DNA of 42,847 nucleotides from an uncultured Pseudomonadota bacterium (lineage in GTDB: Bacteria > Pseudomonadota > Gammaproteobacteria > Steroidobacterales > Steroidobacteraceae). Positions within the stretch are counted from its first letter, which is position 1; each line of letters starts with the position of its first letter. This document shows, one piece after another, positions 483 through 33,815 of the stretch. The notes beneath the pieces were generated by a model, which saw only the letters and a list, made by a program, of their open reading frames with translations, had not been told where the DNA came from and did not search any database. The position numbers were made by a program, and so were the translations under genes. Where the stretch lies: assembly GCA_903927005.1 (NCBI GenBank), contig CAIYLH010000025.1, positions 1 to 42,847 of the forward strand, in the 5' to 3' direction.

Positions 483-540
483 CCCCGGCGGCTACTTCGA
501 CTTCCTCCACCCGTGGCCGGGGCAAACTCCTCCACCTAAC
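483..540 (+). repeat. IS21 left terminal repeat block
   Basis: This block matches the complement of the right end block (3079-3138). Both contain CCCCGGCGGC, then a first (C/A)CTTCCyCCACC box, a GTGGCC spacer element, and a second box reading CTCCTCCACCT here and TTCCTCCACCT in the right block. They are the likely transposase-binding ends. Confidence 0.7.
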
Positions 541-591
541 CTGATCGCGATGGGGCGCACGTCGGAGGCGACGGCAGGATTTGTTGGAGTG

Positions 592-1368
592 TTACGCGGA
601 TTCCTCGGTGTTGACAAGGCGGCTGGAGGATTCCTTGAGCCGATAGCTGCGTCCGCGGAACTCGACGGGTACCGAGCGGTGCAGGAGCCGATCTAGGATC
701 GCGGTGGTGAGCGCGGCGTCGCCGAGGCACTTGCTCCAGTCGTCGATGACGCGGTTGGTCGTGATGATGCAGCTGCGGCGGAGTGAGTATCGGCGATGCA
801 GGATTGCCTGCAACTCGTCGGCGGACTCGGTCGCTATCCTGCGGCGTAGGAACAGATCGTCGAGCACGAGCAGATCGGCGTCCACGAGCGGCTTCAGGAG
901 CTTCTTCTTGCGCAGCGGCTCGGTCGAGGCGATGGCGAGATTGCCGAGGAGTTCATCGGCTTCGACGTAAGCGACGTGCATCCCGGAGCGGACCGCAGAG
1001 TACGCGATCGCCTTGGCCACATGACTCTTACCCGTGCCAGACTTCCCGACCAAGATCGCATTTTGGCCTTCGGCGATGAACTTCAGCGTGTTGAGCTCGA
1101 AGCAGGTTCGTTTCGGGATCTGCGGGTTGTAACTCCAGTCGAACTCGGCCAGCGAAGCGCGTTCCGGCAGCGCAGATCGCTGGTAGCACTTGTCGAGCAG
1201 CCGCGTGTGCCGTCGATCCAGCTCGTCCTGCAGCAGGTCGGAGAGCACCTCGACGGCCGACAGGTTGCTGCTCTGGGCCTCGAGCAGGCGCGTCTCCAGC
1301 GTCGCGAGCGCGCCGGACAGGCGCAACTGCTTCAGTGTTTTCTTCATCTCGATCATCGACATCGTCAT
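592..1368 (-). CDS. istB: IS21-family helper ATPase IstB
   Basis: A 258-residue AAA+ ATPase that assists the IstA transposase in target selection and strand transfer. A Walker A motif (GKSGTGKSHVAKA) is followed by a Walker B motif (LLVLDDLFL), and the length is normal for IstB. The ATG at 1368 overlaps the istA stop in an ATGA, so translation is coupled. There are several in-frame ATG codons in the first eight residues; the first is taken because of this coupling. The gene ends about 110 bp inside the left end of the element. It appears intact. Confidence 0.93.
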   Translation of the reverse strand: MTMSMIEMKKTLKQLRLSGALATLETRLLEAQSSNLSAVEVLSDLLQDELDRRHTRLLDKCYQRSALPERASLAEFDWSYNPQIPKRTCFELNTLKFIAEGQNAILVGKSGTGKSHVAKAIAYSAVRSGMHVAYVEADELLGNLAIASTEPLRKKKLLKPLVDADLLVLDDLFLRRRIATESADELQAILHRRYSLRRSCIITTNRVIDDWSKCLGDAALTTAILDRLLHRSVPVEFRGRSYRLKESSSRLVNTEESA

Positions 1369-2993
1369 GGGTCACCTCGGTGTGGAACGGGATGCAACGC
1401 GTCGCTGTGTTGCTGGAAGAACTCGGCATACTCGCGGGTCTCACGGATCAGCTCGTGCTGCTGCGTGAGCGGCTCCGGCGGCTCGGCGATGAGACGATCG
1501 AGGGCTTGCGCCAGCAGCCTCTCGGCGATCTGACGCACGACTTTGTAGCTGGTGACATGCGTGGCGAGCGCGACCGTAACCGCTTGCTCAACCAGCCTGG
1601 CCGGCATTCGCGGCACGAGGTTGACGATGCCCCACATGCTCTTTTGGGCCTCTCGGCCGCGCCGATCGAAGAGCCTCTGGCACAGGATCTGCGTGTTCGG
1701 CCCGATGTCCTCAGCTTTCTTGAGCAGCCGCCGCGTCTGGCGTGACGGGTTGAAGATCCGGTCTGCGTCCGGCAATTTCACTTCGCCCTTCTTGTACGCG
1801 AGCGTGTGGCGGCGTAGCAGCGCCAGCGTCGCAAAGTCGCGTATCTCGAGGTCGCGATCGAACACCCTCACGATCGCCACGCTACCGATCACCGCAGGCC
1901 TCGCCGCGTACCACGAGTCGTCGACCTGAACGGTCTGATCGTCCTGCACGATGCGCGTCTCTTCCTTGAAGTACCGGAACAACTCGATTGGCAACGCCGT
2001 CAGACGCGGCCTCTCCTCCTGGAACATGGCCTCCACCTGGCGCTTCGCCCGGCCGTGCATCCGCTTCGACGCCCAGCGCTCCTCCCAGTCCATCAGGTGC
2101 GCGTTCTGGGCCTCGATCGACTCGAAGCGTCGGCCCTTCAGGGCCGTCGACTGCGTGTGCTGTATTGCGTTCTCGACGGTTCCCTTTCGATCGGGATCCC
2201 GTATCCGTGCCGGGTCAGCTACGCAGCGGTAATGCGCGAGCACTGCGGCGTACAGGCGATTGATCTCAGGCTCGTAAATGTCGGGCTTGATCACACCTTC
2301 TTTGAGGTTGTCCAAAACAACGTACTGCGTACAGCCGCCGAAGTACCGGAACGCCTCCTCGTGGAGTCGCGCCCAGGTCTCGCTGCTCGATTTCCACACC
2401 ACCTGCCGGAACGAGCGCCGCGAGTACCGCAGCGTCATCACGAACAGCCGCGGCTTGCGATACTTGCCGCTCACCGGATGACGCGTCGGCGCTCCCTCGC
2501 CGTAGTCGACCTGCGCCTCTTCGCCGGGGTCGAACTCGAGGCGGTCGAACTGCTCCGGCGCCTGCCGCCGCAGGCCCCGGCAGAACCGCTTTACGCTGTT
2601 GTAGGCGTGCGTGAAGCCGCGCAGGTCCACCAGATCCTGATAGATCGAGACCGCGTTCCGCCGCAGTCGGACCTGCGCCTCGATCCAATCCCGGTGCGGC
2701 TCGCACGCCGACCTTGCCAGGCCGGTGCCGTCGGCCGGCGCTTCTTCCTCGGCAATAGCCGGTGGCCGGGGTGGAGGAATTTGATCTTGGGCTGCCGTCG
2801 GTCCCGCCGCCGAGCCGGTGGCCAGGGTGGGGGAATTTGCCGCCGTGACCGCCGCAGAGGCCGCCGCTGCCCTCGCGTACGTGCGGATCGTCTTGCGGTC
2901 CACGCCCGTCACGCGGTGGATCTCCCGCTGCGTGACGCCTCGAGAAATCAACGTCAAAACAGTACCTTGCAGATGCGGCTTCAAGACATTCAC
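1365..2993 (-). CDS. istA: IS21-family transposase IstA
   Basis: A 542-residue DDE transposase. The N-terminus holds a helix-turn-helix (residues about 15-40, ISRGVTQREIHRVTGVDRKT). The RNase-H-like core shows the expected acidic residues: D163 (QVDYGEG), D228 (VVLDNLKEG) and E274 (GTVENAIQ). Length is usual for IstA. Residues about 53-80, rich in Pro (NSPTLATG and QIPPPRPPA), are encoded by two copies of a 26-bp repeat resembling the IS terminal repeats, so the coding region itself carries extra end-like sequences. The frame is intact, so the element may be active. Confidence 0.93.
   Translation of the reverse strand: MNVLKPHLQGTVLTLISRGVTQREIHRVTGVDRKTIRTYARAAAASAAVTAANSPTLATGSAAGPTAAQDQIPPPRPPAIAEEEAPADGTGLARSACEPHRDWIEAQVRLRRNAVSIYQDLVDLRGFTHAYNSVKRFCRGLRRQAPEQFDRLEFDPGEEAQVDYGEGAPTRHPVSGKYRKPRLFVMTLRYSRRSFRQVVWKSSSETWARLHEEAFRYFGGCTQYVVLDNLKEGVIKPDIYEPEINRLYAAVLAHYRCVADPARIRDPDRKGTVENAIQHTQSTALKGRRFESIEAQNAHLMDWEERWASKRMHGRAKRQVEAMFQEERPRLTALPIELFRYFKEETRIVQDDQTVQVDDSWYAARPAVIGSVAIVRVFDRDLEIRDFATLALLRRHTLAYKKGEVKLPDADRIFNPSRQTRRLLKKAEDIGPNTQILCQRLFDRRGREAQKSMWGIVNLVPRMPARLVEQAVTVALATHVTSYKVVRQIAERLLAQALDRLIAEPPEPLTQQHELIRETREYAEFFQQHSDALHPVPHRGDP
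2758..2839. repeat. Two internal 26-bp repeats inside istA that resemble the IS ends
   Basis: Bases 2758-2783 and 2814-2839 are direct repeats of 26 bp with two mismatches. Each contains GCCGGTGGCC, then a GGGTGG(A/G)GGAATTTG core. The same GTGGAGGAATTTG core occurs in the right terminal block near 3084-3096. In the protein they give the two Pro-rich linkers of IstA. Confidence 0.75.
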
Positions 2994-3078
2994 CTCGTTC
3001 CCCCTCGGACTCGGAGGGGGCGGATCATGTCCTGCCGTCAGCGCCCGGAATACCGGCGCCTCACATCATCAGCGACTC

Positions 3079-3138
3079 GTCAGGTGGAGGAATTTGAAGT
3101 GGCCACAGGTGGGGGAAGTTGGGTGGCCGCCGGGGTCA
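3079..3138 (-). repeat. IS21 right terminal repeat block
   Basis: Reading outward on the plus strand: GGTGGAGGAATTTG, then GTGGCCACAGGTGGGGGAAG, then GGTGGCCGCCGGGGTCA ending at 3138. This is the inverted partner of the block at 483-540. The terminal CA dinucleotide fits IS21. Confidence 0.7.
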
Positions 3139-3343
3139 CGGCAGCGCGGCCTTTGATGTCAATTTCCCAAGGTGTTACCACTAAGCTGATTTCTTCGCAT
3201 AGCAGGGGACTCAACGCGTCGGGATTTCTAGCGTCAATCGCCTTACAGTAACTTCCAAGGACTCCTCGTATTTCGTTGATGCTCTCTTGTTGAAGCAATC
3301 GGCGTTCCAGGATCTCGATTCGCTCTTCAATTAATGGGGCCAT
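3139..3343 (-). pseudogene. SnoaL-like protein, 5' part only, cut off by the IS21 element
   Basis: The ATG at 3343 is preceded by a strong ribosome-binding site (AGGAGA, about 5 bases upstream). The first 68 residues or so have the profile of the SnoaL/NTF2-like fold of small hydrolases and isomerases: an N-terminal helix (EERIEILERRLLQQES) and 'INEIRGVLGSYCKAIDARN' followed by the start of the cone (DALSPLLCEE...). The frame then runs into the IS end at 3138 and reads IS sequence to 3080. SnoaL-like proteins are about 130-150 residues, so half is lost. It lies downstream of and co-oriented with the ketone carboxylase operon and was probably its last gene. Confidence 0.65.
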
Positions 3344-3512: not shown

Positions 3513-4061
3513 CTAAGGGTTCGCTCGCCCTATCTGGTATCCGCAATGCGCATGTCCCTTTGCCAGCCATTGGTCCTGCTTGATTCTAAAACCGAGCGTT
3601 TCATAGAATTTCTTGCCGATGTTGTGGCAATAAACATCGCATAACGGCGTCGTGCCTTTGTCCTTAAAGCGGTCAGGCGTCGTTGCATAAATGGGGCAGT
3701 GGTGTATTTTCTCGCGAGCGCTATCGTCGCCAGACATTTCCCACGTTGGAGTGGATCCCCGGCCTGGGCCCTCATAGGCCACAGCGCGATGTACGACGTC
3801 TAGTGCGCGCGTCACTTGCTGGAGGTTTTCGAACTCTCGGCCCCAAAGAGCCTTCATCGCCGTAACTTCGAGCGCGGCGAATCGTTCAGAAAGTTTCTTT
3901 AGAATATCCAACGTCGCTGATTCGCCGACTGTGTCTAGTGACGCCTCGTACCATGCCCAGTACACACTGCCGAAAAAGTCCTGACACATGCGCAGAAGTT
4001 CTTCATCACTGTAAGTGGTCGCATCTTTGAACACGGTGCCTCCAATTTTGACAAGAAGCAT
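3513..4061 (-). CDS. L-2-amino-thiazoline-4-carboxylate hydrolase-like protein
   Basis: About 182 residues from the ATG at 4061. The C-terminal half has the pattern of the ATC-hydrolase family: a first Cys (HHCPIYATTPDRF), then a cysteine pair (LCDVYCHNIGKKF), then the closing 'WLAKGHAHCGYQI' strand. The named family member opens a thiazoline ring, but many homologues lie in catabolic operons with unknown substrates, so the substrate cannot be read here. The frame stays open upstream to an ATG at 4157 inside the preceding monooxygenase gene; that start would give a 64-bp overlap and an unfamiliar Arg-rich N-terminus, so 4061 is preferred, although no strong ribosome-binding site is seen. It is probably co-transcribed with the luciferase-like gene. 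Confidence 0.6.
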   Translation of the reverse strand: MLLVKIGGTVFKDATTYSDEELLRMCQDFFGSVYWAWYEASLDTVGESATLDILKKLSERFAALEVTAMKALWGREFENLQQVTRALDVVHRAVAYEGPGRGSTPTWEMSGDDSAREKIHHCPIYATTPDRFKDKGTTPLCDVYCHNIGKKFYETLGFRIKQDQWLAKGHAHCGYQIGRANP

Positions 4062-4093
4062 AAAACGTCTTTGAAGATCGTCTGTTAGCGAGC

Positions 4094-5155
4094 TCAGCTG
4101 AAATGCGGGAGAACGGTTTCGCCGAACATGCGGATGCACTCGTTCGTCGCTTCCCACGAAGGTCCTAGCGGCATCCTGAACCTCATCACGACATAGTCCA
4201 CCTGATACTTGTCCCTATACATTTCGAGTGCCTCAATGCAATCGGCAGGGCTGCCTATCACGAGCGACCGCCGTAACTTCTCAATAGTTATGTCGCTGCG
4301 CGAGCGAATGCTCGGGTCATGGTGCGCAAGAATCCCTAGGTCGTAGTAGTAGAGCATTTCAGAAACGAATGCTTCGCCGTATGTCCGCTCTGCCTCCTCG
4401 CGGCTATTGGCAACGAACCCGTCCCGCATCAATACGATTTTTGGATTTTCGACGCCATGCGCGCGCGCCTCTTCTCGGAAAGCATCTGTCTGTCGCTTCC
4501 ATATATCCATATTCAGTGGGAAGGGATCACCGCACCATCCGCTTGCGAAACTACCGCAGCGTTTGATTGCGGGCGCAACCTGCCCACCGCCCCAGATTGT
4601 CGGATGCGGGTCGCGCTGGAATGGCTTTGGGGTTAAATATACGTTTTCATAATTGAAGTGCTTGCCGTGAAAGCTAAACGGTTCTGTTGATGTCCATGCT
4701 TTCTTAAGAACCTCTATGCACTCCATAAATCTCGACAGCCGTGAAGTTCCATCTACCCCAAACATCCGCCAGGAATCCGGCAATACGCCCATCGAGAGGA
4801 CCAAGCTAAGGCGACCCCCGGAGAGTTGATCTACGAGTGCGGCAGACTCCGCGAGGTGCATTGGATCCCATCCGTAAGTTGGGACCAAGGAGTAGGTGCC
4901 AAGTCTGACTCGCTCTGTCCTTGTCGCAAGGGCCGCCAGTAGGATCAGTGGGTTCGGGAACATGGTCTCTGTGCGCATGTGACGCTCAGGAATGAAAACG
5001 CCCTCAAACCCAGCGCGTTCTGCGATTACGGCCTCAGTTATCAGTTGGTCGACACATCGCTTGATGGTTTTTGCGTCAGGCTCTGCTCGGCCGTACTGCC
5101 CAAAGTTTGTGTCTGGCATATAGCCAATCGAAAACTTCTCGAGCTTATCTCTCAT
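4094..5155 (-). CDS. Luciferase-like flavin-dependent monooxygenase (LLM class)
   Basis: A 353-residue TIM-barrel protein of the bacterial luciferase-like family, which uses reduced FMN (or F420) supplied by a separate reductase. Typical features are 'AERAGFEGVFIPERH' (residues about 45-59), 'LAALATRTERVRLGT' and 'LVDQLSGGRLSLVLSMG' in the central barrel, and 'PTIWGGG' further on. Family members act as alkane or ketone monooxygenases (type II Baeyer-Villiger enzymes), sulfonate monooxygenases or F420 oxidoreductases; the sequence does not decide. Position within a ketone carboxylase operon makes an oxygenation step on a ketone or its derivative plausible. It starts 89 bp after the HyuB-like gene, and no flavin reductase gene is seen nearby. 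Confidence 0.85.
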   Translation of the reverse strand: MRDKLEKFSIGYMPDTNFGQYGRAEPDAKTIKRCVDQLITEAVIAERAGFEGVFIPERHMRTETMFPNPLILLAALATRTERVRLGTYSLVPTYGWDPMHLAESAALVDQLSGGRLSLVLSMGVLPDSWRMFGVDGTSRLSRFMECIEVLKKAWTSTEPFSFHGKHFNYENVYLTPKPFQRDPHPTIWGGGQVAPAIKRCGSFASGWCGDPFPLNMDIWKRQTDAFREEARAHGVENPKIVLMRDGFVANSREEAERTYGEAFVSEMLYYYDLGILAHHDPSIRSRSDITIEKLRRSLVIGSPADCIEALEMYRDKYQVDYVVMRFRMPLGPSWEATNECIRMFGETVLPHFS

Positions 5156-5244
5156 CGGAGCGCTCCAAATAACGTTAATCGACTTGGCTGTCTCACGAAA
5201 TTACGGAAGTCGTTTTTCTTCCATAAATCCACGCCACACAAATG

Positions 5245-7302
5245 TTATGAGGCAGGTGTTCTGTCTTTGGGAATAGGCCACGTGCCGTAAAGACGCAACG
5301 CTTCGCTTGGGGGATGGAGTTTCGCGAATTCACGGACGAAGTCGTGGTAAGGAACTGCTTCAGCAAGCCGCCTCTTTCGCTCCGCGGCCCGGCAGTCATT
5401 CGTAGCTTCTTTGTCTACGGATCCATCGGCACGTAACGAGACGCAATAAACGTGTTCCGCTGTCCATGGCGTGCAGATTCCACGAACGACATCGCTCGCG
5501 ACCAGATCCGGGTCACGCTCAAGCACATCGCCGTATCCAGCAGCGCCGGAAGCGACGACGCCAACGAAATCTCCGCCCTTAAACATTGCGCCGGGAATCT
5601 GGATTGGGAGAATTTGGACGTCGATCGCGAGCTTCTTTGCGACTGCAAGTAGTTCCAGATCGTTACGTGGCGTCGGCACGTTAGCGTCGTCCAGCTTTTT
5701 CCAGTTAGCGCCGGTTATTCTAATTCCTGGGCGCACGTTCGCCGAGTAGCCACCAAAGAGTCCGGGGTTTGCTGGGAAGCGGCTTGCTAGCCCAAACGTC
5801 TGTACATAGAAAGCAGGCGTATTGTGCATGCGAATTCCATACGCCATGCTCGCTCCGCCGCGAAACTTTCCATGACCGCAATTGTCCGGTGCGAAGTTGC
5901 AGTATTCGCTGAGGTAGGGATAGAGCACCTCCTCATGTTCCACATCCACTGCGTTCCCCCGGCCTACCCACCAAAACGATCCACATTCAACGCCGTCTTT
6001 GTCGGGGCGTGCGCCAATGCCGGAAGTGTTTCCCGGCCGTAGGGATACGCCTGCGACTTCCTTTCCATACTGGTTAATTCCGCCAAAAAAGAATGCTCTG
6101 GCGCTGGCGCCTGGTGGCGCAGCAATGTTTGTTGATATTTCAGCGTCATTCGCTGCGTACATGGCCTTGTTGAGGCAGAGCATGAAGGTATTGCCGGCGA
6201 TCGGCGCCATCGCAGTGCCGCTAGACACAGCGGCTTGGGAATTCGCGTTAAGAAACGAATATTTCGGGCAGCTAACGTCGAAGGGCACAAGCGTTCCCGA
6301 ACTTCCCGGTAGGTCAGAAAAGTAGTACTGAAATAGCATGCACGTTAGGTGCGCGTAAACGATGTGCTCAAATGCGTTGTAGGGGCCTGGAAGTTCTGGC
6401 GAGGCTCCGGAGAAGTCTGCGAGCATTGTTTCGCCAGTCTTGACGAGCGTGCAAGGCACTCGAATCAACGCCTCGGCAGGGCCGTAAGTGTCTAGGAACG
6501 TTACGCAGCGGTACTTTCCGTCTGGCAGGCTCTTGACGCGTTTTTTCGCTGCAACGGAACTATCCTCGATTACCTTGCGGCAAAGGCCTACTACAAATTC
6601 CTTGCCGCGTTCCGCTGCAATCTCCAGAAGTCTTGTCCGCAGTCTCAGGCAGGACGATAGTTTGACGGACGTGTCGATTGCGATCATTTCTGGGTATCGA
6701 ACCATATTTTCGAATAGTTCGATCATGTCCCGCCGGAGCTTGAAATTTTCGCCGATTCGTATCGGCGGAACTTTTAGTCCTTCGGCGTATCGATCGCGAG
6801 CGTCTGCAGGCTGTCCTCCTGGTTCGGTGGCGCCCGTCTCAGGCTCGTGTCCGGCGGAAGACACCCATGCGATCAGATCGCCCTCGTAGAATATGGGCAT
6901 GAATACAATTTGGTCAGGATTGTGGAGGCCGCCATAAATAGCTTCGTTGCAAAAGAAGATGTCTCCGTCACGTATTCCGACGGTCGCATCATTCTGGTAA
7001 TGCTTCAGCACGAACTTCATTGGCACAGCCGCGGTAATCGCGTGCAGAAAAGTTCCCATCTCGGCAAGAGCCAGATCGCCCTCTGCCGTATGGAAGCTCA
7101 AGCAGACGTCTCCAGACTGAAGAGGCGCCGAGATTCCGAGCCGAATTAAAATCTCCTTCCCTTCCTCGCAGGCGCTTGCCAGGCGCTGCGTGTAGATGCT
7201 GTAGTCCTCATGAGACACAAGCTTTATTGCACGGGCTTGGCGTTTTGTGATCGGTTCTGGTTTGTAACGTTTGTTAAGAAGAAAGCTGATATCCAGTGCC
7301 AT
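5245..7302 (-). CDS. HyuB-like carboxylase subunit (acetophenone carboxylase Apc4 / beta type)
   Basis: 685 residues of the hydantoinase B/oxoprolinase family. The metal-site region is visible: 'GGLHNPDQ' (H127, D130) corresponds to the family GTHLPD motif, and 'AGHEPETGA' (H152) to RGHHADIGG, with Glu near the place of the usual Asp. In acetone and acetophenone carboxylases this subunit joins the activated ketone and carboxyphosphate-derived CO2. The ATG at 7302 has AAGGAAG eight bases upstream and starts 2 bp after the HyuA-like stop. Next to two HyuA-like genes and a gamma subunit, Apc4 is the best match. A plain hydantoinase or oxoprolinase is less likely because those lack the Cys-rich gamma subunit. 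Confidence 0.85.
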   Translation of the reverse strand: MALDISFLLNKRYKPEPITKRQARAIKLVSHEDYSIYTQRLASACEEGKEILIRLGISAPLQSGDVCLSFHTAEGDLALAEMGTFLHAITAAVPMKFVLKHYQNDATVGIRDGDIFFCNEAIYGGLHNPDQIVFMPIFYEGDLIAWVSSAGHEPETGATEPGGQPADARDRYAEGLKVPPIRIGENFKLRRDMIELFENMVRYPEMIAIDTSVKLSSCLRLRTRLLEIAAERGKEFVVGLCRKVIEDSSVAAKKRVKSLPDGKYRCVTFLDTYGPAEALIRVPCTLVKTGETMLADFSGASPELPGPYNAFEHIVYAHLTCMLFQYYFSDLPGSSGTLVPFDVSCPKYSFLNANSQAAVSSGTAMAPIAGNTFMLCLNKAMYAANDAEISTNIAAPPGASARAFFFGGINQYGKEVAGVSLRPGNTSGIGARPDKDGVECGSFWWVGRGNAVDVEHEEVLYPYLSEYCNFAPDNCGHGKFRGGASMAYGIRMHNTPAFYVQTFGLASRFPANPGLFGGYSANVRPGIRITGANWKKLDDANVPTPRNDLELLAVAKKLAIDVQILPIQIPGAMFKGGDFVGVVASGAAGYGDVLERDPDLVASDVVRGICTPWTAEHVYCVSLRADGSVDKEATNDCRAAERKRRLAEAVPYHDFVREFAKLHPPSEALRLYGTWPIPKDRTPAS

Positions 7303-7304
7303 GG

Positions 7305-9533
7305 CTAAGCTTCCTTCTTTTTTGTGCTGTTGCGCTGGCCTGCGTCGGGTCGCGCTGTAGCCGTAGTCGCCTTGTTATTGATTGGTCGCATTTCGCATAC
7401 GCCGTCTCGTAAAACCTCAAATTCCCACCCTGGGGAAATGACATGAGTAGTGTCGCGGGCCTCCGCTATGGCAGGTCCTGAGATCACTTCGCCAGGACGA
7501 AGCGCGCTCAATGAAAATATTGGTGTATGCACTCGTTCTAGCGTGGAGTCCCAAATTATTGATCTATGGCCCGCAGGCGTTGAGCTCTGCCTACGTGGTG
7601 CGCGCAGTGTTCTTTTTTTCGTGAGGCCGCCACCTGCTCTGGGCAGGCTGCCATGCAAAACGAACGTTTCAATCCTAACTAAAGCCTCTGGGAGGTCTAT
7701 GCCGAGGCTCAGCGAGATAAGGTGCTCTCTAAAGTCACGATAGAGATCTTGTATGCTCTTCTGCGTATGTAGCCTAAGTTCCTTACACTGAATTCTCTGG
7801 GTCACTGGCGATGACCCGTAACGAAGCTCTAATTCAAGCGACACTTTCATCCCAGAGAGGTCGAGACCCTCCGACCTCATATCCCGATCTAGGTCTCGTT
7901 CTAGGTCTGCAACTGTTTCGTTGAACGTGGCCATATCGGTCAGATAGCTTTTCGTTATCGGATCGTAGAGCGACATCGGGCGGGACTTTTCGTAGACGTG
8001 GGTCACGTCGAGGGTGGAGGCCCCATAAGCGCAAAATACAGAAGATTCCGAGAACAGCAGAATTCGCTTAATTTTTAGCGCCTCAGCATAGCCACAGCAA
8101 TGAGCTGGGCCGGCTCCGCCATAAGCCAAAAGCGCGAAGTCCTGAGGGTCGAAGCCTTTTAGGACAACCTCCTTGAAGATCTCGATCCCCATTTTTCCAT
8201 CGACGACCCGCTTGATTGAGTACGCGGCCTGTTCTACTGACATGCCGCCTGGCTTCGCGATGTGGCGTCGGATAGCGTCAAATGAGCGCTCCTTTTCAAG
8301 CTTCATTCGGCCGCCGAGGAAATTGTCTGGAGATACATACCCGAGGACGACATCCGCGTCCGTTACCGTCGGCTTATTCCCACCCAGTCCGTAGCAGGCC
8401 GGGCCTGGAATCGAACCGGCGCTTTGCGGGCCGACTTCCAGTCGGTTCCCAAAAGCTTTGTTGAGCCATGCTATAGACCCGCCGCCTGCGCCGATGGACT
8501 TGACCTCGAGGAGCGGCAGATCAACTGCCCAACGGTCGATTACGGGTCTGACGGAATAGAATCTCGGTCGGCCTTGTACGACGAGTCCGAGATCAAAGCT
8601 CGTGCCTCCCATGTCAGTACAGACGGCGTTTTTTATTCCCATAGACCGCGCGCGAAATGCGCCACCCATGATTCCAGCGACTGGACCTGATTGGTAGGTG
8701 TCGACTACGCGCGTGCGAGAAAGCTTTGCGACTCCACCAGTGTTCTGGACCATTTGGAGGGGCTTGTGGTAGCCGCTGTCACGAAGCCGATCGCCAATTG
8801 ATAGCAACTGGTTAGTCAACTCCGTATGCAGAAACGCCGTTAAAACCGTGGTCGTCGTGCGGGTGTACTCTCGCCACTTGGGAACGACGTCGCTGGCGAG
8901 CAGTACCGGGATATTCCCGAGGTACACATCTGGATATTCGGACTGAATGATTTCCCGAACGCGCCGCTCATGAGTTGGGTTTGCAGAGCTCCAAAGTAGT
9001 GATACGACGATGCCCTGGACGCCGCGGTCTACCAGGTGCTGGAGCGCGTCGAGCACGTCGTTTTCGTCAAGTGTCCTTACGACAGTGCCGAACGTGTCCA
9101 CGCGCTCATTCAGTCCGACCACCATTTCTCGCGGTACGAGGCTTTCTGGCATCTGCGCCCGGGCGACTTTTCGCTGTTCAGCTAGCGGGAGTCCGTCACC
9201 GCACGCGCGGCCATTCCCAATAAAGAGCATGTCTTCGTGGCCGCCGGTAGTAATCAGCCCGAGACGAGGTCCATTGCGTTGTAGCAGGGCGTTGAGCGCT
9301 ACGGTAGTGGAGTATCGGAGGATGTCCGTGCCCTTGAGCAGTTCCTCCACGTCAACCTCGAGGTCTTTGCACGCCTCACCAAGTGCGTTCAAGAATCCCC
9401 GTGACAGATCGTCGGGCGTGGTCGCCGCTTTTCCCCAAGACAAGCGCCCACTTTTTGTGACATAGCAGTCAGTAAACGTACCTCCAATATCGATGTTTAC
9501 GGTTGTGCCGGAGTCTGCCTCTTGCGCGTTCAT
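7305..9533 (-). CDS. HyuA-like carboxylase subunit (acetophenone carboxylase Apc3 type)
   Basis: 742 residues of the hydantoinase A/oxoprolinase family with an ASKHA-type ATP-binding fold. The phosphate-binding loop is 'NIDIGGTFTDCY' near the N-terminus, and the second nucleotide motif is 'CTDMGGTSFDLGLV'. Family members phosphorylate the enol(ate) of the ketone or bicarbonate using ATP. The ATG at 9533 overlaps the gamma-subunit TGA (ATGA), with TTGGAG upstream. It is 90 residues longer than the other HyuA-like subunit of the same operon (9872-11830), so the two are not a recent duplication but distinct alpha-type subunits, as in the alpha-alpha' arrangement of acetophenone carboxylase. Confidence 0.87.
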   Translation of the reverse strand: MNAQEADSGTTVNIDIGGTFTDCYVTKSGRLSWGKAATTPDDLSRGFLNALGEACKDLEVDVEELLKGTDILRYSTTVALNALLQRNGPRLGLITTGGHEDMLFIGNGRACGDGLPLAEQRKVARAQMPESLVPREMVVGLNERVDTFGTVVRTLDENDVLDALQHLVDRGVQGIVVSLLWSSANPTHERRVREIIQSEYPDVYLGNIPVLLASDVVPKWREYTRTTTTVLTAFLHTELTNQLLSIGDRLRDSGYHKPLQMVQNTGGVAKLSRTRVVDTYQSGPVAGIMGGAFRARSMGIKNAVCTDMGGTSFDLGLVVQGRPRFYSVRPVIDRWAVDLPLLEVKSIGAGGGSIAWLNKAFGNRLEVGPQSAGSIPGPACYGLGGNKPTVTDADVVLGYVSPDNFLGGRMKLEKERSFDAIRRHIAKPGGMSVEQAAYSIKRVVDGKMGIEIFKEVVLKGFDPQDFALLAYGGAGPAHCCGYAEALKIKRILLFSESSVFCAYGASTLDVTHVYEKSRPMSLYDPITKSYLTDMATFNETVADLERDLDRDMRSEGLDLSGMKVSLELELRYGSSPVTQRIQCKELRLHTQKSIQDLYRDFREHLISLSLGIDLPEALVRIETFVLHGSLPRAGGGLTKKRTLRAPRRQSSTPAGHRSIIWDSTLERVHTPIFSLSALRPGEVISGPAIAEARDTTHVISPGWEFEVLRDGVCEMRPINNKATTATARPDAGQRNSTKKKEA

Positions 9534-9868
9534 CGAGCGGCTCCAACTGGCTGCGTTGCTTTAAGCGCGTCGAGGTCGATCTCTATGTCGTGCGTTATTG
9601 GGTGGCCGGGCGGAAGGTATTCGACCTCGATTAGAGTGGCGCAGCTCGGGCAAAACATCTCCACGAGGCGGCACCACTCTGGGTCGGGCGTGAACCGTGG
9701 CTCGCCTATCCCCGATGAATGAACCTCGCCTGGGTCTCGTTGGCGTAGTACGAGCCCAAACTTGTAGTTTTCGCGCGCGTTGCCGATGTCATGTTGGCAT
9801 TTTCGACAGATCCAGCGCTCACGCTCTAGATCTATGGCGAGGTATTCAGTTATGGCTCGGGTGCTCAT
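9530..9868 (-). CDS. Small Cys-rich gamma subunit of acetone/acetophenone carboxylase type (Apc2-like)
   Basis: 112 residues. Two CxxC pairs (C21/C24 in 'WICRKCQHDIG' and C73/C76 in 'FCPSCATLIEVE') plus C66 suggest a zinc-binding knuckle, as in the gamma subunit of acetone carboxylase and Apc2. The length, about 13 kDa, is nearer the small Apc2 type than the longer acetone carboxylase gamma chain. The middle reads 'NYKFGLVLRQRDPGEVH', matching the family's 'YK-x-x-(L/V)-x-R-x-x-x-E-(I/V)-H' style. It sits between the two HyuA-like genes. The ATG at 9868 follows the upstream stop by 3 bp. This subunit separates a ketone carboxylase from a hydantoinase. Confidence 0.82.
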   Translation of the reverse strand: MSTRAITEYLAIDLERERWICRKCQHDIGNARENYKFGLVLRQRDPGEVHSSGIGEPRFTPDPEWCRLVEMFCPSCATLIEVEYLPPGHPITHDIEIDLDALKATQPVGAAR

Positions 9869-9871
9869 TTT

Positions 9872-11830
9872 CTAGCCTCGATTGATCTGAACTTTTAACG
9901 CGCTGAATGCATCCTTTTCTGCTGCCCATCCAGCCGGGACGACGCAGGTTGTCTCCCCGAATTCGATCGTCATCGGTCCCTGATGCCGGACGCCAACTTC
10001 CATACGATCGATAGACACAACGGGTGTTGATCGGCGTCCATCAGCCCAGCCGATGTTGCGTATAGTCGTCTCCATCGATCGTCCGGGGCTACCTTTCGTA
10101 GTCGCCATCGGTTTCGGTTCCGTCGTATTCTGCAGCGTCGCTGTCAGGCGAACGACGATGTCGGTCCGGCCCTCCAGCGAGTCATCTATTGCGCCACTCG
10201 ACTGTGCCAGCAGCCGGCCGTCAGTGGTTTCAATGGTCGTCTGCATTACTGCGTGTTCTGGATCGAATCCCTCCCCACGGATGTCCCGTTTCGCGTGCAT
10301 TCGCAATTCTGACTGAGTTCTTTGCAAGGAATTTTTCAGAGATTCGGTGTCGCTGCGCTGAATGCGTCGTTCATACATGTGTTCGATCGCCATCGTCGAC
10401 GAGCCTGCAGCACTAAAAACCGCGCTCTCTGGAAATACATAGAAACTTGCGATGCCGAGCGCAGCCGCGAAATCTGCCGCGTGCAGGGGCCCGGCGCCGC
10501 CGTAGGCGAACAGAACAGCGCTGGCCAGATTAAAGTTGCGTCGTTGTGCCTCGTTGCGAACCTGGCTTGACAGTGCTCCTGCCAATATCTGGCGTACCTG
10601 CAAGGCCGCCTCGTCGACGCTTAATTTGAGCGGTGCTGCCAACACATTAGCTAGCGACTCCTGCGCTAGTGTCTGGTTGATACGGCGGCGTCCGCTGAGA
10701 AAATTCGATGGATCGATAAGTCCTAATGCTAAGTCCGCATCAGTCACTGTGGGTAGAGTGCTTCCCAGGTCGTAACACGCCGGTCCTGGTACTGCGCCGG
10801 CACTATCGGGGCCAACCACTATTTGTCCGTCGGAAACTCTAGCCAGCGAACCGCCGCCGCCGCCCAGGCCCAGCACGTCAATCATTGGAAGACTTACCGG
10901 GATCCCTTCGATCAACACGTCATGGGAAATCGCGACCTTCCCTGATTTTATAAAGGCGACGTCGGTGCTCGTTCCACCCATATCCATGGTGACGACCGAA
11001 TCAAGTCCATATCTCTGTGCGATCTTCGACGCGCCGAAAACACCAGCAGTCGGGCCAGAATTGTAGGTATTGATTGCTTTTGTCTTCGCAACCCTGGCAA
11101 GGCCGCCACTCGAATGGACGACGAGCAGTGGATGCCGATACCCTCGGCTGCGGACGGCGTCGTCACATTTATAAAGATATGAGACTAAGTCGCGATGCAA
11201 ATAGCCGGATATTACTGCAGTATTCAGTCTCTCGGAGTCACCGGCACGGGAGGTGACCTCGTGAGAAAGAAGTAGAAAAGGCATCCCTAGGTGATGGCTG
11301 GGAAACAGCTCCCGAAACAGTTGGAGCGCTCTTCGTTCGTTCGCGGCGTTGAGACTCGCGTTGCGAAATGCGACGACAAGAAGGCGGGCGCCGTGATCGA
11401 GAAGGCTTTCTGCAGCTTCCCGGAAACTGTCGGCATCGAGTTCGGCTTTTAGCTGTCCCGTTGAATCGACGTCTTCTCGTATGCCGCGGACCATCGAAGG
11501 ATTAAGTAGTGGCCAGATTTTAGAACGACCGTCGCCCCGGTGGTACAAACGTTCTTCGTCGTCAGCGCTGACTAACAGGCCAATTCTGGCGCCTCGGCGT
11601 TGGATAAGCGCGTTAGTCGCTGCAGTTGTTGAGTACCGTATGACGTCGGTATCTTGGAGGAGGTCGCGGACATCTTTGCCGAGAAGCAAAGCCCCGGCTT
11701 CTATGCAGTCCATAAAGCATTGGACACGATTGTGCGGCGTTGTATCGACTTTTGCAGTAACTATGGAGGCTCCGTAACGGAAGACGCCATCGGTAAATGT
11801 GCCGCCTGTGTCGATGTCAATCGTGTTCAT
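9872..11830 (-). CDS. HyuA-like carboxylase subunit (acetophenone carboxylase Apc1 type)
   Basis: About 652 residues from the ATG at 11830. ASKHA nucleotide-binding motifs are clear: 'TIDIDTGGTFTDGVF' at the N-terminus and 'VTMDMGGTSTDVAFI' in the second half of the fold, followed by the family's 'GLGGGGGSLARV'. The start is chosen because AGGAG lies 5-6 bases upstream; an ATG at 11872 is in frame but lies deeper in the upstream gene and adds a non-homologous leader. It overlaps the UroD-like gene end (11817) by 14 bp. Together with the other HyuA-like protein, the gamma subunit and HyuB it would form the carboxylase core that spends ATP to carboxylate a ketone. Confidence 0.86.
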   Translation of the reverse strand: MNTIDIDTGGTFTDGVFRYGASIVTAKVDTTPHNRVQCFMDCIEAGALLLGKDVRDLLQDTDVIRYSTTAATNALIQRRGARIGLLVSADDEERLYHRGDGRSKIWPLLNPSMVRGIREDVDSTGQLKAELDADSFREAAESLLDHGARLLVVAFRNASLNAANERRALQLFRELFPSHHLGMPFLLLSHEVTSRAGDSERLNTAVISGYLHRDLVSYLYKCDDAVRSRGYRHPLLVVHSSGGLARVAKTKAINTYNSGPTAGVFGASKIAQRYGLDSVVTMDMGGTSTDVAFIKSGKVAISHDVLIEGIPVSLPMIDVLGLGGGGGSLARVSDGQIVVGPDSAGAVPGPACYDLGSTLPTVTDADLALGLIDPSNFLSGRRRINQTLAQESLANVLAAPLKLSVDEAALQVRQILAGALSSQVRNEAQRRNFNLASAVLFAYGGAGPLHAADFAAALGIASFYVFPESAVFSAAGSSTMAIEHMYERRIQRSDTESLKNSLQRTQSELRMHAKRDIRGEGFDPEHAVMQTTIETTDGRLLAQSSGAIDDSLEGRTDIVVRLTATLQNTTEPKPMATTKGSPGRSMETTIRNIGWADGRRSTPVVSIDRMEVGVRHQGPMTIEFGETTCVVPAGWAAEKDAFSALKVQINRG

Positions 11831-12638
11831 GCTCGCTCCTAGCGAAATCGCTCCGCTCTGGACGATTCCCAATAAATTTTTCTCGGGCTAGTTCCGTAAG
11901 CTCCCGTAGAGTCTGTATTGGAGTGTCTTCCGGTACGTCCGACGCAGTCGTAAACGGCATTTGTGTGCCCGCTATGCCAACGCCGCGAACTAGCTCGTAA
12001 GGTCGTATGCTGGACTGCAAGAAGAATGAGCAGTGCGCAGAGGTCGCAGTTCTCGGTGCTTCGCTGGGGAGATGAAATACTATTTGGGCCCCGTCGTAGA
12101 ACTCAGCGATCCTGTTCGCGCTTCGATACAGGCTATCCACTTGAGGTAGTACTGTCGCCATCGATTTCTCAATTACTGCAATTCCGTGAGCCTCTGCGTT
12201 GAAGGACTCCCTCACTGCGGCAAGAAAAACGTCGCCCGCATAATCAAGGTCTGCGTCTGGCAGGTCTTCAGATCGCATCGCTAATTCCTCAAGTAACAGC
12301 TCCGGCCCGGTGAAGCTTGAGTAAACGCGCACTTTCTGAGGAAGTTGCGGGCGCAAAGCGCGAACGGCATTTAGAATTGACGCGAATGGTTCTGAGTAGG
12401 GGACGGATTCTGGCTCACGCAGTTCGGTGCGTCCGTCGCTTTTGATAAGACATGCGTCTACAAGAATTTGCGTATCAAAAATGCAAATTATTCCGTCGTG
12501 TCCGACCAGGCGCTGGCTGTCTAGTAGGGATCTTGCCAGTGCGGCGGGCGTCGCCCGGAGCTGAGGAGTCGCAAGGTTTCCAATTCGGTAAGTGTGGGCC
12601 GTTAGAATCGGCATAAATTCTGAGAGGAGGAGTGGCAT
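11817..12638 (-). CDS. UroD-like (uroporphyrinogen decarboxylase superfamily) protein in the carboxylase operon
   Basis: 273 residues. The order of motifs recalls the UroD/corrinoid methyltransferase TIM barrel: 'LARSLLDSQRLVGHDGIICIFD' (like the 'lGvD..(f/l)..D' strand), a 'VYSSFTGPELLLEELA' segment like the 'GPftla' strand-helix, and a C-terminal 'PEDTPIQTLRELTELARE' as in UroD. The zinc motif of the methyltransferases (HxC...C) is not kept; 'VFHLPSEA' has only the His. Size and operon place suggest a counterpart of the fifth acetophenone carboxylase subunit (Apc5, about 34 kDa), but that is inference. The start is uncertain: neither ATG (12638 or 12614) has a good ribosome-binding site. 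It lies 15 bp after the thiolase gene. Confidence 0.5.
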   Translation of the reverse strand: MPLLLSEFMPILTAHTYRIGNLATPQLRATPAALARSLLDSQRLVGHDGIICIFDTQILVDACLIKSDGRTELREPESVPYSEPFASILNAVRALRPQLPQKVRVYSSFTGPELLLEELAMRSEDLPDADLDYAGDVFLAAVRESFNAEAHGIAVIEKSMATVLPQVDSLYRSANRIAEFYDGAQIVFHLPSEAPRTATSAHCSFFLQSSIRPYELVRGVGIAGTQMPFTTASDVPEDTPIQTLRELTELAREKFIGNRPERSDFARSEHEHD

Positions 12639-12653
12639 TTTCGGCAGACGCGT

Positions 12654-13886
12654 CTAGCAGTCTTCGGCATGTACGACCAACGCCACTGCGTCGGCCTGTC
12701 CGAGTGCTCCGCAAATCGTCGCTACCCCGCGGCCGCCACCACGGTTTCTAAGCTCGTGAGCCAATTGAAGTAAAAGACGGGCCCCGCTTGCGCCGGTGGG
12801 ATGTCCGATAGCGACCGCTCCCCCATTTACGTTGGTTTTGCTGAGAAGCACCTTCTCGTGGCTTGGGCTTCCCTGGGCAAGGTATCGCGCTGTAACCAGT
12901 GGCACAGCGGCGAACGCTTCGTTTATCTCTAATGCGTCCAGAGCTTCTGTTTTCCAGCCTAACGGCGTAGTTGCTTTGAGAATCGCCGGTCCGGGTGCGA
13001 CGATGATTTCGCGTGGCGCGCACGCAATGCTTGAGAGACCGACGATTGTCGCCATTGGATGGGCGCCAATACTTAATGCCGCTGCGCGCGTTGTTATTAG
13101 TAGAGCGACAGCGCCAGTGTCTAGTCCCGGCGCGTTTCCGGCAGTGATTGTTGGGCTGTCATAGGCAGTCTTCAATAGAGAGAGAGTCGCCGGTGTGGTG
13201 CTCGTTCTCGCGAGTTCATCGTGGTCGAGGGTGGCTTTGTGTTCCGGAAATTCGACAGCGGCGACGTGGTTGTAGAAGCCACGGTGCTTTGCAGCGAAGT
13301 ACTTTTGGTGTGAGGCGGCAGCCCATTCGTCCTGCATCTCCCGTGTGACGCCCCACTCCAAAGCAACTTCACCGGCATCGACGGCGACAGGCCTATTGCT
13401 GATGTCGGCGCCGAGCCGGTACAGAGGATCTTTGAAGACGATCGGGCCCCCTCGGTGCCCGAAGCGAAGGCCAGGGGGTGCGAGAAAAGTTGCCCTGCCC
13501 ATGTTCTCTGCGCCAGCCGCCACTACCCACCTTGCGTCGCCGGCGCGAATGCTGCGCGCAGCAAGGAGCACTGCCGTTAGCGAGGAGCAACAGCCTCGGT
13601 CGATGGTTAGCGAGACTGTCGAGTCCGGAAGGCCTGCTCGCAGTAGTGCTTGCCGCCCTGAGGTTGGGCCGTCGAGTGCCACTTCGGCAGGGAGCGTTAC
13701 GCCGTAATATATTTCGTCCACTAGTAGCTTTGCGGGGGCAACTTGTTCGAGAAGTTGACGTATTACGTGGCCACCAAGCGTCACGCTAGGCACTTCCCGT
13801 AGCGCGCCCCCGAACTTCGAGAACGGCGTGCGTACGCCTGCCACTAAGACAATGTCCGTCGCGGCGGGAGCTGGAAGGGTAGACAT
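12654..13886 (-). CDS. Thiolase (acetyl-CoA C-acyltransferase type), first gene of the carboxylase operon
   Basis: 410 residues, the usual length of degradative or biosynthetic thiolases. The catalytic residues are visible: nucleophile C99 in 'DRGCCSSLTA' (family CxSG, here CCSS), 'NEAFA' at 322-326, H362 in 'AIGHPTGASGAR', and C392 in 'TICGALGQADA' (usual CGGGGQG). The CCSS and CGALGQ variants are unusual but keep all catalytic atoms. It would cleave a beta-ketoacyl-CoA, which is what a carboxylated ketone becomes after CoA ligation; no CoA ligase gene is seen in the window. The ATG at 13886 is the only early start and no strong ribosome-binding site is present. The genes from thiolase to HyuB are separated by at most 15 bp or overlap. 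Confidence 0.9.
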   Translation of the reverse strand: MSTLPAPAATDIVLVAGVRTPFSKFGGALREVPSVTLGGHVIRQLLEQVAPAKLLVDEIYYGVTLPAEVALDGPTSGRQALLRAGLPDSTVSLTIDRGCCSSLTAVLLAARSIRAGDARWVVAAGAENMGRATFLAPPGLRFGHRGGPIVFKDPLYRLGADISNRPVAVDAGEVALEWGVTREMQDEWAAASHQKYFAAKHRGFYNHVAAVEFPEHKATLDHDELARTSTTPATLSLLKTAYDSPTITAGNAPGLDTGAVALLITTRAAALSIGAHPMATIVGLSSIACAPREIIVAPGPAILKATTPLGWKTEALDALEINEAFAAVPLVTARYLAQGSPSHEKVLLSKTNVNGGAVAIGHPTGASGARLLLQLAHELRNRGGGRGVATICGALGQADAVALVVHAEDC

Positions 13887-15069: not shown

Positions 15070-15492
15070 ATGACTACGTCGCAAGCTGATTCTGGCTTCA
15101 CTCCCAACTCGCCCAGGGGGTGTGTTCTCTCGGCGATTGAGGCCGCGAGAACTGGTCGGGCTCAGGAATTTTTTGACCATTTCGATGGAAATGTAGAGTT
15201 CTGGATGCCGGGCTCTACGCCCATATCCGGTCGCTGGAACACGCGTGATGGATTCATCGAATACGCCACGCTGGTCTTCAGCTATCTGAGCATGCCGGTC
15301 CGGCTTGAAGTAAAAAATGTCATCGCGGCAGGTGACTGGGTGGTGACGGAATGCAGTGGGCATGGCGTGACGCGTGATGGTGTCGACTACGACAACGTGT
15401 ATTGCCTGGTTTGGCGAGTACAGCGCGGCAAGATCGTTCGCTTTACGGAATACTGCGACACCGACCTTGTTCGACAGGTGCTTTGCCGATGA
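15070..15492 (+). CDS. SnoaL/NTF2-like protein
   Basis: 140 residues with the SnoaL-like (ketosteroid isomerase-related) profile: 'FFDHFDGNVEFWMPGSTPISGRW' is the typical first half, where a Trp/Pro-Gly loop precedes the 'G-x-(W/Y)' turn. It continues with 'VKNVIAAGDWVVTECSGHGVTRDG' and 'YDNVYCLVWRVQRGKIVRFTEYCDT', the closing strands. Such proteins act as small isomerases, dehydratases or hydrolases, and several work in ring-compound catabolism. Its stop overlaps the start of the esterase gene (ATGA), so the two are co-translated. No ribosome-binding site is obvious before the ATG. The substrate is not readable. Confidence 0.8.
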   Translation: MTTSQADSGFTPNSPRGCVLSAIEAARTGRAQEFFDHFDGNVEFWMPGSTPISGRWNTRDGFIEYATLVFSYLSMPVRLEVKNVIAAGDWVVTECSGHGVTRDGVDYDNVYCLVWRVQRGKIVRFTEYCDTDLVRQVLCR

Positions 15493-16433
15493 ATACTGTG
15501 CCGCTCGACGAGCAGGCCCAAGAGCTTTTGCGAATGGGGCAGGAGAGCGGCGGTCAGCTGCTCGAGTCGCTCCCCATTTCGACAGTTCGTCAACAGGTCG
15601 ACGCGTCGCTGCCTGCCATTGGCGTAGCCTTTGAAAATGTCGCCCAGACGATCGACGTTGAGATCCCAGCTACCGGCACACAGCCCTCGTGCGCTGGGCG
15701 ACTCTATATTCCGTTGAGTTCTCGCCCTGGGCCGCTGCCGACTATCCTCTTCCTGCACGGCGGCGGCTGGGCGTGCTGCGGTTACGCAACCCATGACGCG
15801 CTGTTTCGGTATTTCGCCAATCGGACTTCCGCTGCGGTATTGGCTTTGGACTTCAGGCTCGCTCCGGAGCATAAGTTTCCCAGTGCATTCGATGACTGCG
15901 TTCGCGCGATGGAGTGGCTACTAAGTGGGCCGCGTGAGGATCTTGACCCGACGCGTCTGGCACTGGCAGGAGATTCCGCCGGCGGGAATCTGGCCGCTGC
16001 AGTGGCTGCTCGTTTTGCGGGCGAGCCCCGACTGCGGCATCAGCTGCTTCTGTATCCCGTGCTCGACTCATCCGAGAGGTATCCCTCACACGAGGAGTAC
16101 GGAGCCGGATATTTCCTCGATAATTCGACAATGGACTGGTTTGTCGGCCAATACGCCAGATCGGCAGCCGACACCCTTGACCCCCGCTTCTCCCCAGTGC
16201 ATGCGTCGAGCTTTGCCGGCGTGACAGCGACGACGCTGATGGCGTGTGGCTACGATATCAATCGAGATGCTTCGCTGCGTTACACAGACCGGCTGCGCGC
16301 GGCCGGGGTGGTATGTGATACGCGCCTCTTTGAGGGGCTGCCGCACGGCTTCGCAAGCATGGCCGGCTTCATCGCGTCGGCTCACGTGCCGTTAGAGCAG
16401 GGCGCTACCGCCCTGCGCGAGGCCCTGAAGTAG
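15489..16433 (+). CDS. HSL-family alpha/beta hydrolase (carboxylesterase)
   Basis: 314 residues from the ATG at 15489, which overlaps the upstream stop as ATGA. The hormone-sensitive-lipase family signatures are all present: oxyanion 'HGGGW' (residues 90-94), nucleophile S163 in 'GDSAGG', D256 in 'ACGYDINRD', and H286 in 'LPHGFASM'. It is a cytoplasmic esterase for short-chain or cyclic esters and lactones. Beside a luciferase-like monooxygenase, hydrolysis of an ester made by Baeyer-Villiger oxidation is an attractive but unproven role. No signal peptide is seen. Confidence 0.88.
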   Translation: MNTVPLDEQAQELLRMGQESGGQLLESLPISTVRQQVDASLPAIGVAFENVAQTIDVEIPATGTQPSCAGRLYIPLSSRPGPLPTILFLHGGGWACCGYATHDALFRYFANRTSAAVLALDFRLAPEHKFPSAFDDCVRAMEWLLSGPREDLDPTRLALAGDSAGGNLAAAVAARFAGEPRLRHQLLLYPVLDSSERYPSHEEYGAGYFLDNSTMDWFVGQYARSAADTLDPRFSPVHASSFAGVTATTLMACGYDINRDASLRYTDRLRAAGVVCDTRLFEGLPHGFASMAGFIASAHVPLEQGATALREALK

Positions 16434-19662: not shown

Positions 19663-19705
19663 GATGCCGGCGGAACTGGCGGGAAAACTCTTAGGGAGCG
19701 GTACA

Positions 19706-22000: not shown

Positions 22001-22010
22001 CACGTGGAAA

Positions 22011-22035
22011 GTCGGGGGGCAGCCAGCCCCCCGGC
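22011..22035 (+). terminator. Strong GC hairpin right after nosZ (stabiliser or partial terminator)
   Basis: GTCGGGGGGC and GCCCCCCGGC flank a 5-base AGCCA loop, giving a 10-bp stem (one G-T pair). It begins 11 bases after the nosZ stop and ends 24 bases before the next start. There is no T tract, so it is more likely to protect the nosZ mRNA 3' end or to attenuate read-through than to stop transcription fully. Confidence 0.5.
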
Positions 22036-22059
22036 GCTTCCTACCTGAAGGAGAAGGCC

Positions 22060-22371: not shown

Positions 22372-22402
22372 CGCGACCATGTATCAAATGAGGAATGAAG
22401 TT

Positions 22403-23116: not shown

Positions 23117-23163
23117 GCTAATTCGCGCTTTTTGGCGCAGGGTTGATCGCGGGATTTCATAGC

Positions 23164-24171: not shown

Positions 24172-24179
24172 CTGTCGTC

Positions 24180-33814: not shown

Positions 33815-33815
33815 C

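Follow-up and report, generated by a model that had tools for sequence, protein, structure and literature searches.

The window analysed here, the whole 42,847-nucleotide contig CAIYLH010000025.1 of assembly GCA_903927005.1 (C25 of a 3.99-Mb, 139-contig genome from an uncultured member of the Steroidobacteraceae, Pseudomonadota), carries on its minus strand, at positions 3513-13886, a run of eight genes that probably encodes a complete five-subunit ketone carboxylase of the acetophenone carboxylase (Apc) type. Two enzymes that would use its product accompany it, a thiolase at the head of the run and a coenzyme A (CoA) ligase encoded on another contig, C2, and the ketone is probably something other than acetophenone. 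The eight genes specify, in order, the thiolase, the epsilon, alpha', gamma, alpha and beta subunits, a luciferase-like (LLM) oxidoreductase and a small Cys-rich protein, with intergenic gaps of -64 to +89 bp when the longest frames are used. Coordinates (Table 1) derive from open reading frame (ORF) calls and Pfam and NCBIfam profile scans, and the nearest solved relatives from profile matches to the PDB. The original prediction, drawn from the letters and ORFs of the window, had described a HyuA-gamma-HyuA-HyuB order on this strand; ORFs and profiles bear out both the content and the order, and add to its list of four subunits a fifth, a divergent ApcE at 11817-12638.

A two-alpha complex of the Apc type is supported by phylogenetic trees, by the gamma-family match of the small subunit and by the presence of five subunits. 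The best PDB match of alpha is chain B of the Aromatoleum aromaticum EbN1 enzyme (5l9w_B, E 4.9e-187; runner-up 4e-105), beta matches 5l9w_A at E 6.4e-136 versus 1.4e-49 for acetone carboxylase (Acx), gamma matches 5l9w_C at E 5.2e-32 versus 4.1e-10 for Acx, and the best matches of alpha' are both HyuA chains of 5l9w. Similarity of the small protein to the gamma family, the lack of which would have spoken against the original prediction, is evident from its Pfam match (Table 1), and it contains Cys21, Cys24, Cys73 and Cys76 as well as Cys66; the conserved gamma cysteines reported for the Aromatoleum enzyme are C22, C25, C75 and C78 (PMC5214803). With 685 residues in beta and 112 in gamma, against chains of 684 and 129 in Apc and 776 and 168 in Acx, both subunits are Apc-like and shorter than those of Acx. 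An approximate rule given in PMC5214803 makes the Apc alpha subunit some 30 residues shorter than that of Acx, and the 742-residue alpha of the window exceeds the Acx chains; the solved chains, with 732 residues in Apc versus 717 and 727 in Acx, do not follow the rule either, so that alpha length fails to tell even these reference enzymes apart. ATP-site motifs are readable in both alphas, and the region of the R/KERiDsxG fingerprint in alpha reads NERVDTFG, with ER.D..G kept and N as first residue. Clusters of the Apc-type branch are described as comprising alpha', gamma, alpha and beta genes with epsilon optional (PMC5214803), and all of these are present at 5245-12638 in the order E-A-B-C-D, in which the position of epsilon is unusual.

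To place these proteins, genome contigs were scanned with a gamma alignment, which gave 371 relatives; the best 80 were kept and, with loci from further genomes, gave the trees. The survey of loci covered 88 (L021 and L088 are the same place, counted twice). All trees are quick searches with support from the Shimodaira-Hasegawa-like approximate likelihood ratio test (SH-aLRT) only. The beta tree of 82 rows separates an Apc group of 71 rows (support 99), which includes the window, from acetone carboxylases (7 rows, support 100) and hydantoinases (2 rows, support 97); within it the window pairs, on a long branch and with support 100, with the locus L032 considered below. The alpha/alpha' tree holds 151 of 170 rows (rows shorter than 560 aa and 11 loci having been dropped) and two 5l9w chains, and places all alpha' rows in a single clade of 72 (support 100), with the window inside. 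The phylogeny that the original prediction had called for thus puts beta and alpha' with Apc, and with neither Acx nor the two hydantoinase rows. In two loci, L028 (G668:C19) and L029 (G724:C31), the HyuB-type frame, 769 and 825 aa long respectively, has a gamma-like match of its own and stands beside a single HyuA; these form a separate tree group. We also note that L051 and L097, contigs titled as a Klebsiella pneumoniae metagenome-assembled genome (MAG), carry Apc clusters whose proteins fall among those of environmental bacteria, so that the label is probably wrong.

Acetone carboxylase itself (5svb, 5m45) shares homologues of HyuA, HyuB and gamma with the window but has one HyuA, a longer gamma and no epsilon (PMC5214803), and it was set aside on this composition and on its separate tree group. 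Hydantoinases, 5-oxoprolinases and caprolactamases share the HyuA and HyuB families, and it is conceivable, though we think it improbable, that the window encodes an ATP-dependent hydrolase acting on a lactam, hydantoin or amide, to which extra subunits have been added and which carboxylates nothing. HyuA and HyuB share a superfamily with hydantoinases and caprolactamase, the alpha of the window matches the caprolactamase alpha subunit with 495.8 bits, and alpha' has D at position 281 instead of the K of Aromatoleum, as do 61 of the 80 alpha' rows longer than 430 aa that were compared (83 aligned rows minus 3 alpha rows; L020-L111). Against such a hydrolase, the two-gene hyuAB clusters of hydantoinases lack gamma (PMC5214803), while the window has gamma and a second HyuA; beta and alpha' separate in the trees from the two hydantoinase rows; and a thiolase and a ligase fit a 3-oxo acid. 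A hydantoinase or oxoprolinase assignment was rejected on these grounds.

The window looks like a divergent enzyme of the Apc branch, and we have not filed it as an acetophenone carboxylase because its proteins score below the NCBIfam equivalog cut-offs and its alpha' departs from the signature residues E248 and K281. In Aromatoleum, E248, D274 and K281 of alpha' are tentatively named for the presumed bicarbonate site (PMC5214803); the window reads N, D and D there, and two of the three thus differ. E248 and K281 occur together in 19 of the 80 rows, 17 of which are in the tree and form, with the Aromatoleum chain, exactly one clade of 18 rows (support 100) that excludes the window. Likewise, in a second beta tree, from which 7 of the 82 rows were left out and to which the Aromatoleum beta chain was added, that chain belongs to a clade of 15 rows (support 100) and the window lies outside. 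Seven residues are named as lining the presumed ketone site of alpha (PMC5214803), of which the window keeps three (L81, P285, I333), and at the other four it has Y281, Q282, E344 and V345; the set in L032 is identical to that of the window. The altered pocket residues and the placement outside the clades of the Aromatoleum chains make it likely that the ketone is not acetophenone, as suggested in the original prediction.

A true acetophenone carboxylase in an ethylbenzene or acetophenone pathway, merely divergent, is accordingly a doubtful reading, marginally less probable than the hydrolase. The enzyme of A. aromaticum EbN1 (ApcABCDE; 5l9w, 9fou) has the same five subunits, the alpha'-gamma-alpha-beta order, a four-Cys gamma and a CoA ligase gene in the operon region (in the host it lies behind an insertion element), and a ligase and a thiolase are what benzoylacetate would require (PMC4729919). 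Set against this, the alpha and beta of the window are only 44.2% and 36.5% identical to the Aromatoleum chains, compared with 52.9-73.8% for beta in the six best loci, and the residues of both pockets differ; in addition, the epsilon gene comes first and not last, a thiolase stands in the run, and the LLM and Cys-rich genes are added.

Against a chance assembly of the gene run, the same eight genes recur in the same order in L032 (PKXK01000075.1), from palsa_286, a MAG titled Acidobacteriaceae and hence of another phylum than the host. Identities range from 38.7 to 78.8%, with 78.8% for beta, 75.7% for alpha, 74.1% for LLM and 67.3% for the thiolase. Among the 88 loci, many of which are cut short, a frame best matching the window LLM or Cys-rich protein (phmmer, E 1e-6) is found in L032 only. 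There the eight genes are followed by a short-chain dehydrogenase/reductase (SDR), a SnoaL-like protein, a CoA ligase and a second LLM, and are preceded by a flavin adenine dinucleotide (FAD) oxidase and a CCG Fe-S protein, SDRs also being among the flanking genes. The host cassette differs in that no SDR gene separates those for the Cys-rich and SnoaL-like proteins, no second LLM follows the ligase, no such oxidase and CCG protein lie upstream, and the SnoaL-like gene is interrupted.

The interruption is an IS21-family element, and it bears on the statement in the original prediction that a CoA ligase is missing. This is correct for the window, where none of 30 scanned proteins matches the AMP-binding family, and wrong for the genome: a relative of the L032 ligase, 62% identical to it (next best 33%), lies at C2:409-1962. 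Contig C2 begins with the IS21 end (C2:1-120 is 99% identical to the IS21 end of the window), after which come the 3' portion of a SnoaL-like gene, whose 5' portion sits in the window at the opposite end of the IS, and then the ligase gene. The SnoaL-like pieces of the window and of C2 align to neighbouring stretches of the SnoaL-like protein of L032. Insertion of IS21 most likely divided the operon, with the assembly breaking at that point, and the ligase seems to be missing from the window for this reason. One junction is ambiguous, since positions 1-482 of the window continue past the IS21 end into sequence unlike that of C2; the assembly contains a single full IS21 copy, and the mismatch implies either more copies than it shows or one chimeric junction. 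The least probable reading that we considered is a two-alpha carboxylase whose substrate is not a simple ketone but, for example, a CoA ester or an enone, ring or side-chain chemistry having been carried out beforehand by the LLM, SnoaL-like and Cys-rich proteins, for which the cassette partners unlike those of the Aromatoleum operon and the FAD oxidase, CCG protein and SDRs flanking L032 can be cited, and against which stand the lack of any pointer in the sequence and, as weak evidence, a ligase gene placed after and not before the carboxylase genes.

The epsilon subunit of the window matches the NCBIfam ApcE model (NF042977) weakly, at E 9.1e-5 with 21.9 bits, and its own PDB search gave chance-level matches only. 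An iterative profile seeded with it gathered relatives beside apc genes, of which 51 rows were aligned, the window included. This family profile matches PDB 9fou, titled acetophenone carboxylase epsilon subunit, at E 2.2e-39, the methylcobalamin:CoM methyltransferase MtaA (4ay7) at E 2.4e-15 and, weakly, uroporphyrinogen decarboxylases (E 0.039 and 0.22); of the members, 23 match NCBIfam ApcE and 17 match Pfam URO-D (PF01208) at E up to 0.1. From these profile and member matches we infer that the epsilon family is kin to MtaA and URO-D, a kinship that reaches the window copy through family membership and not by a direct match. A gene on the Haloterrigena alkaliphila plasmid NZ_CP084319.1 (L140), annotated as a uroporphyrinogen decarboxylase family protein and lying between alpha' and gamma, also matches the epsilon profile; the order of this archaeal Apc-type cluster is alpha'-epsilon-gamma-alpha-beta. 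Epsilon is termed elusive, and absent from some operons, in PMC5214803. An epsilon-like frame is present in 68 of the 88 loci, with truncated contigs scored as misses. Its gene stands after apcD in 58 of them and, in nine, between apcB and apcC or, where the contig ends, behind apcB; L032 alone has it ahead of the other subunit genes, as in the window, and the L032 protein is 38.7% identical to that of the window.

Of the genes flanking the carboxylase, the thiolase scores 328.8 bits against TIGR01930, above the cut-off of 240.55. It had been considered an unusual partner, a view that the wider sample does not sustain: ten of the 88 loci hold a frame best matching it, and 18 (L020 counted) a frame best matching the SCP-type thiolase of L020. 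The Cys-rich protein has no Pfam or NCBIfam family at E up to 10, which leaves its earlier name, ATC-hydrolase-like, without profile support; searches of plasmids and of the PDB returned chance matches only, and among 369 genomes of the host's class it occurs in one, the host itself.

The presence of an LLM gene beside the carboxylase genes agrees with what had been predicted (Table 1). Because both the host and the L032 genome encode F420 genes, its product may be an alcohol dehydrogenase that depends on F420 and provides the ketone, with a flavin mononucleotide enzyme as the possible alternative; the luciferase family is known to include a secondary alcohol dehydrogenase that reduces F420 (PMC8498797). 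In the host, CofGH scores 1097.8 bits (cut-off 1018), CofE 273.9 (180.65), CofD 302.1 (257.45) and Fgd 487.9 (420). CofE is found in nine of 20 chosen genomes: the host, that of L032, G515 (the genome of L027, in which an LLM of another subfamily lies beside apc genes), four of 14 genus mates, G668 and G733. It is thus present in all three genomes with an LLM beside apc and is not rare among the others. The closest plasmid relative of the LLM is haloarchaeal (44.3% identical), with CoA ligase-like and thiolase-like frames within 9 kb. On G000:C61 (L115), in a Pseudomonadota genome, the genes for CofGH, CofE and Fgd lie close to those for a CoA ligase and for a ketosteroid-dehydrogenase-like flavoprotein.

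Base composition and distribution suggest that the genes were acquired horizontally, and the whole looks like a mobile pathway cassette. The GC content is 0.553 in the cassette and 0.552 over the initial 2 kb of C2; it is 0.617-0.693 in ten stretches of the genome, among them the first 20 kb of C2, and 0.59-0.63 in the remainder of the window. Counting the host, ApcB-family matches occur in one of 60 relatives, nine of 398 genomes of the phylum and seven of 396 of the order; they are strong (E <1e-36) in five of the nine and five of the seven, the others being weak (E 1e-10 to 1e-4) and several of them lying in three-gene acetone-carboxylase loci. Misbinning as the cause of the low GC content is less likely, because the flanks on both C25 and C2 have host-like values, although a MAG cannot settle the matter. 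A plasmid search found no close DNA, and at the protein level alpha reaches no more than 42.5% identity to its best relative on a plasmid.

In Aromatoleum, acetophenone is converted to benzoylacetate, on which a CoA ligase and a thiolase then act (PMC4729919), and the cassette and C2 hold genes that fit each step of a pathway that carboxylates, activates and thiolyses. In the scheme that we propose, alpha would phosphorylate the enol of the ketone with ATP, as a presumed ketone kinase, and alpha' would spend a second ATP, presumably on bicarbonate; epsilon would join both activated parts at the core complex; the CoA ligase encoded behind IS21 would activate the resulting 3-oxo acid; and cleavage of the 3-oxoacyl-CoA by the thiolase would yield acetyl-CoA together with a shortened acyl-CoA. 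Formation or modification of the ketone would fall to the LLM, which may depend on F420. A more elaborate version, which we offer as speculation with perhaps a modest chance of being right, has an F420-dependent LLM oxidising a secondary alcohol to the ketone, a new carboxylase subtype without the Aromatoleum-type bicarbonate residues in alpha' and with a URO-D-like epsilon for the C-C step, and movement of the cassette between Acidobacteriota and Pseudomonadota. No published description of such a cassette was found in the titles and abstract openings listed by text searches of open-licence papers.

Several observations weigh against a five-subunit Apc-type carboxylase with this pathway. The beta and alpha/alpha' trees each warn of long branches meeting, and alpha forms one group with a support of just 52. 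The alpha' protein scores higher against the alpha chain of 5l9w (368.5 bits) than against the alpha' chain (332.2 bits), although NCBIfam ranks ApcA (411.8 bits) ahead of ApcC (379.7 bits) for it, and the scores of ApcA to ApcE all fall far below the equivalog cut-offs (411.8 of 1250, 134.2 of 250, 673.9 of 1500, 457.2 of 1500 and 21.9 of 450 bits). Because E248 and K281 are N and D, the substrate of alpha' may not be bicarbonate. Searched alone, the epsilon of the window matches no Pfam family, URO-D included. The best NCBIfam model of the LLM, TIGR03619 (F420_Rv2161c), gives 137 bits, below its cut-off of 166.9, and the four genus mates with CofE are, like the other ten, without an ApcB match. 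With IS21 separating the carboxylase genes from the ligase gene, the pathway may be impaired in this population. Lastly, as of 2017 the Apc branch had a single characterised enzyme, according to PMC5214803.

Table 1. Genes and elements of the carboxylase cassette in the window (-, minus strand).
Feature	Position	Strand	Evidence or remark
Acyl-CoA thiolase, first gene of the run	12654..13886	-	Pfam Thiolase_N/C; TIGR01930
ApcE-like epsilon subunit, 273 aa	11817..12638	-	NCBIfam NF042977, weak; member of the family alignment
ApcA-like alpha' (second HyuA)	9872..11872	-	Profiles, tree; likely start ATG 11830
ApcB-like gamma, 112 aa	9530..9868	-	PF08882 (Acetone_carb_G), E 2.3e-34
ApcC-like alpha (HyuA, presumed ketone kinase), 742 aa	7305..9533	-	PDB 5l9w_B
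ApcD-like beta (HyuB), 685 aa	5245..7302	-	PDB 5l9w_A; beta trees
Luciferase-like (LLM) oxidoreductase, possibly F420-dependent	4094..5155	-	PF00296, E 5.4e-48
Small Cys/His-rich protein	3513..4157	-	Likely start ATG 4061; 57.2% identity to the L032 gene
SnoaL-like gene, 5' part, IS21-interrupted	3136..3343	-	Aligns to the L032 SnoaL-like protein
IS21-family element	483..3135	.	IstB_IS21, E 8.1e-57, and rve
istB	592..1368	-	Inside the IS21 element
istA	1365..2993	-	Inside the IS21 element

Elsewhere in the window, beyond the thiolase gene on the plus strand, positions 15070-16433 hold a divergent SnoaL-like gene and a hormone-sensitive-lipase-type hydrolase and start in the low-GC part. A nitrous-oxide-reductase (nos) cluster at 19664-31115 includes nosZ-like, cytochrome c, nosD, ferredoxin-type, ABC transporter and SCO1-like genes, and at 31469-35057 a molybdenum hydroxylase large subunit is followed by a cytochrome c protein.

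The Apc branch is large, with 371 gamma relatives in one genome collection, and as of 2017 a single member was characterised (PMC5214803). The cassette described here would be one whose substrate can be searched for, because it is divergent and apparently complete, has a possible oxidoreductase upstream and comes with a ligase and a thiolase for the product. The division of alpha' rows by E248 and K281 provides a sequence test that tells Aromatoleum-type rows from the others, and it makes the tentative bicarbonate role of alpha' testable. Finally, the occurrence of epsilon in 68 of the 88 loci, together with the kinship of its family to MtaA and URO-D, bears on how two distant kinase sites may be bridged in these enzymes.

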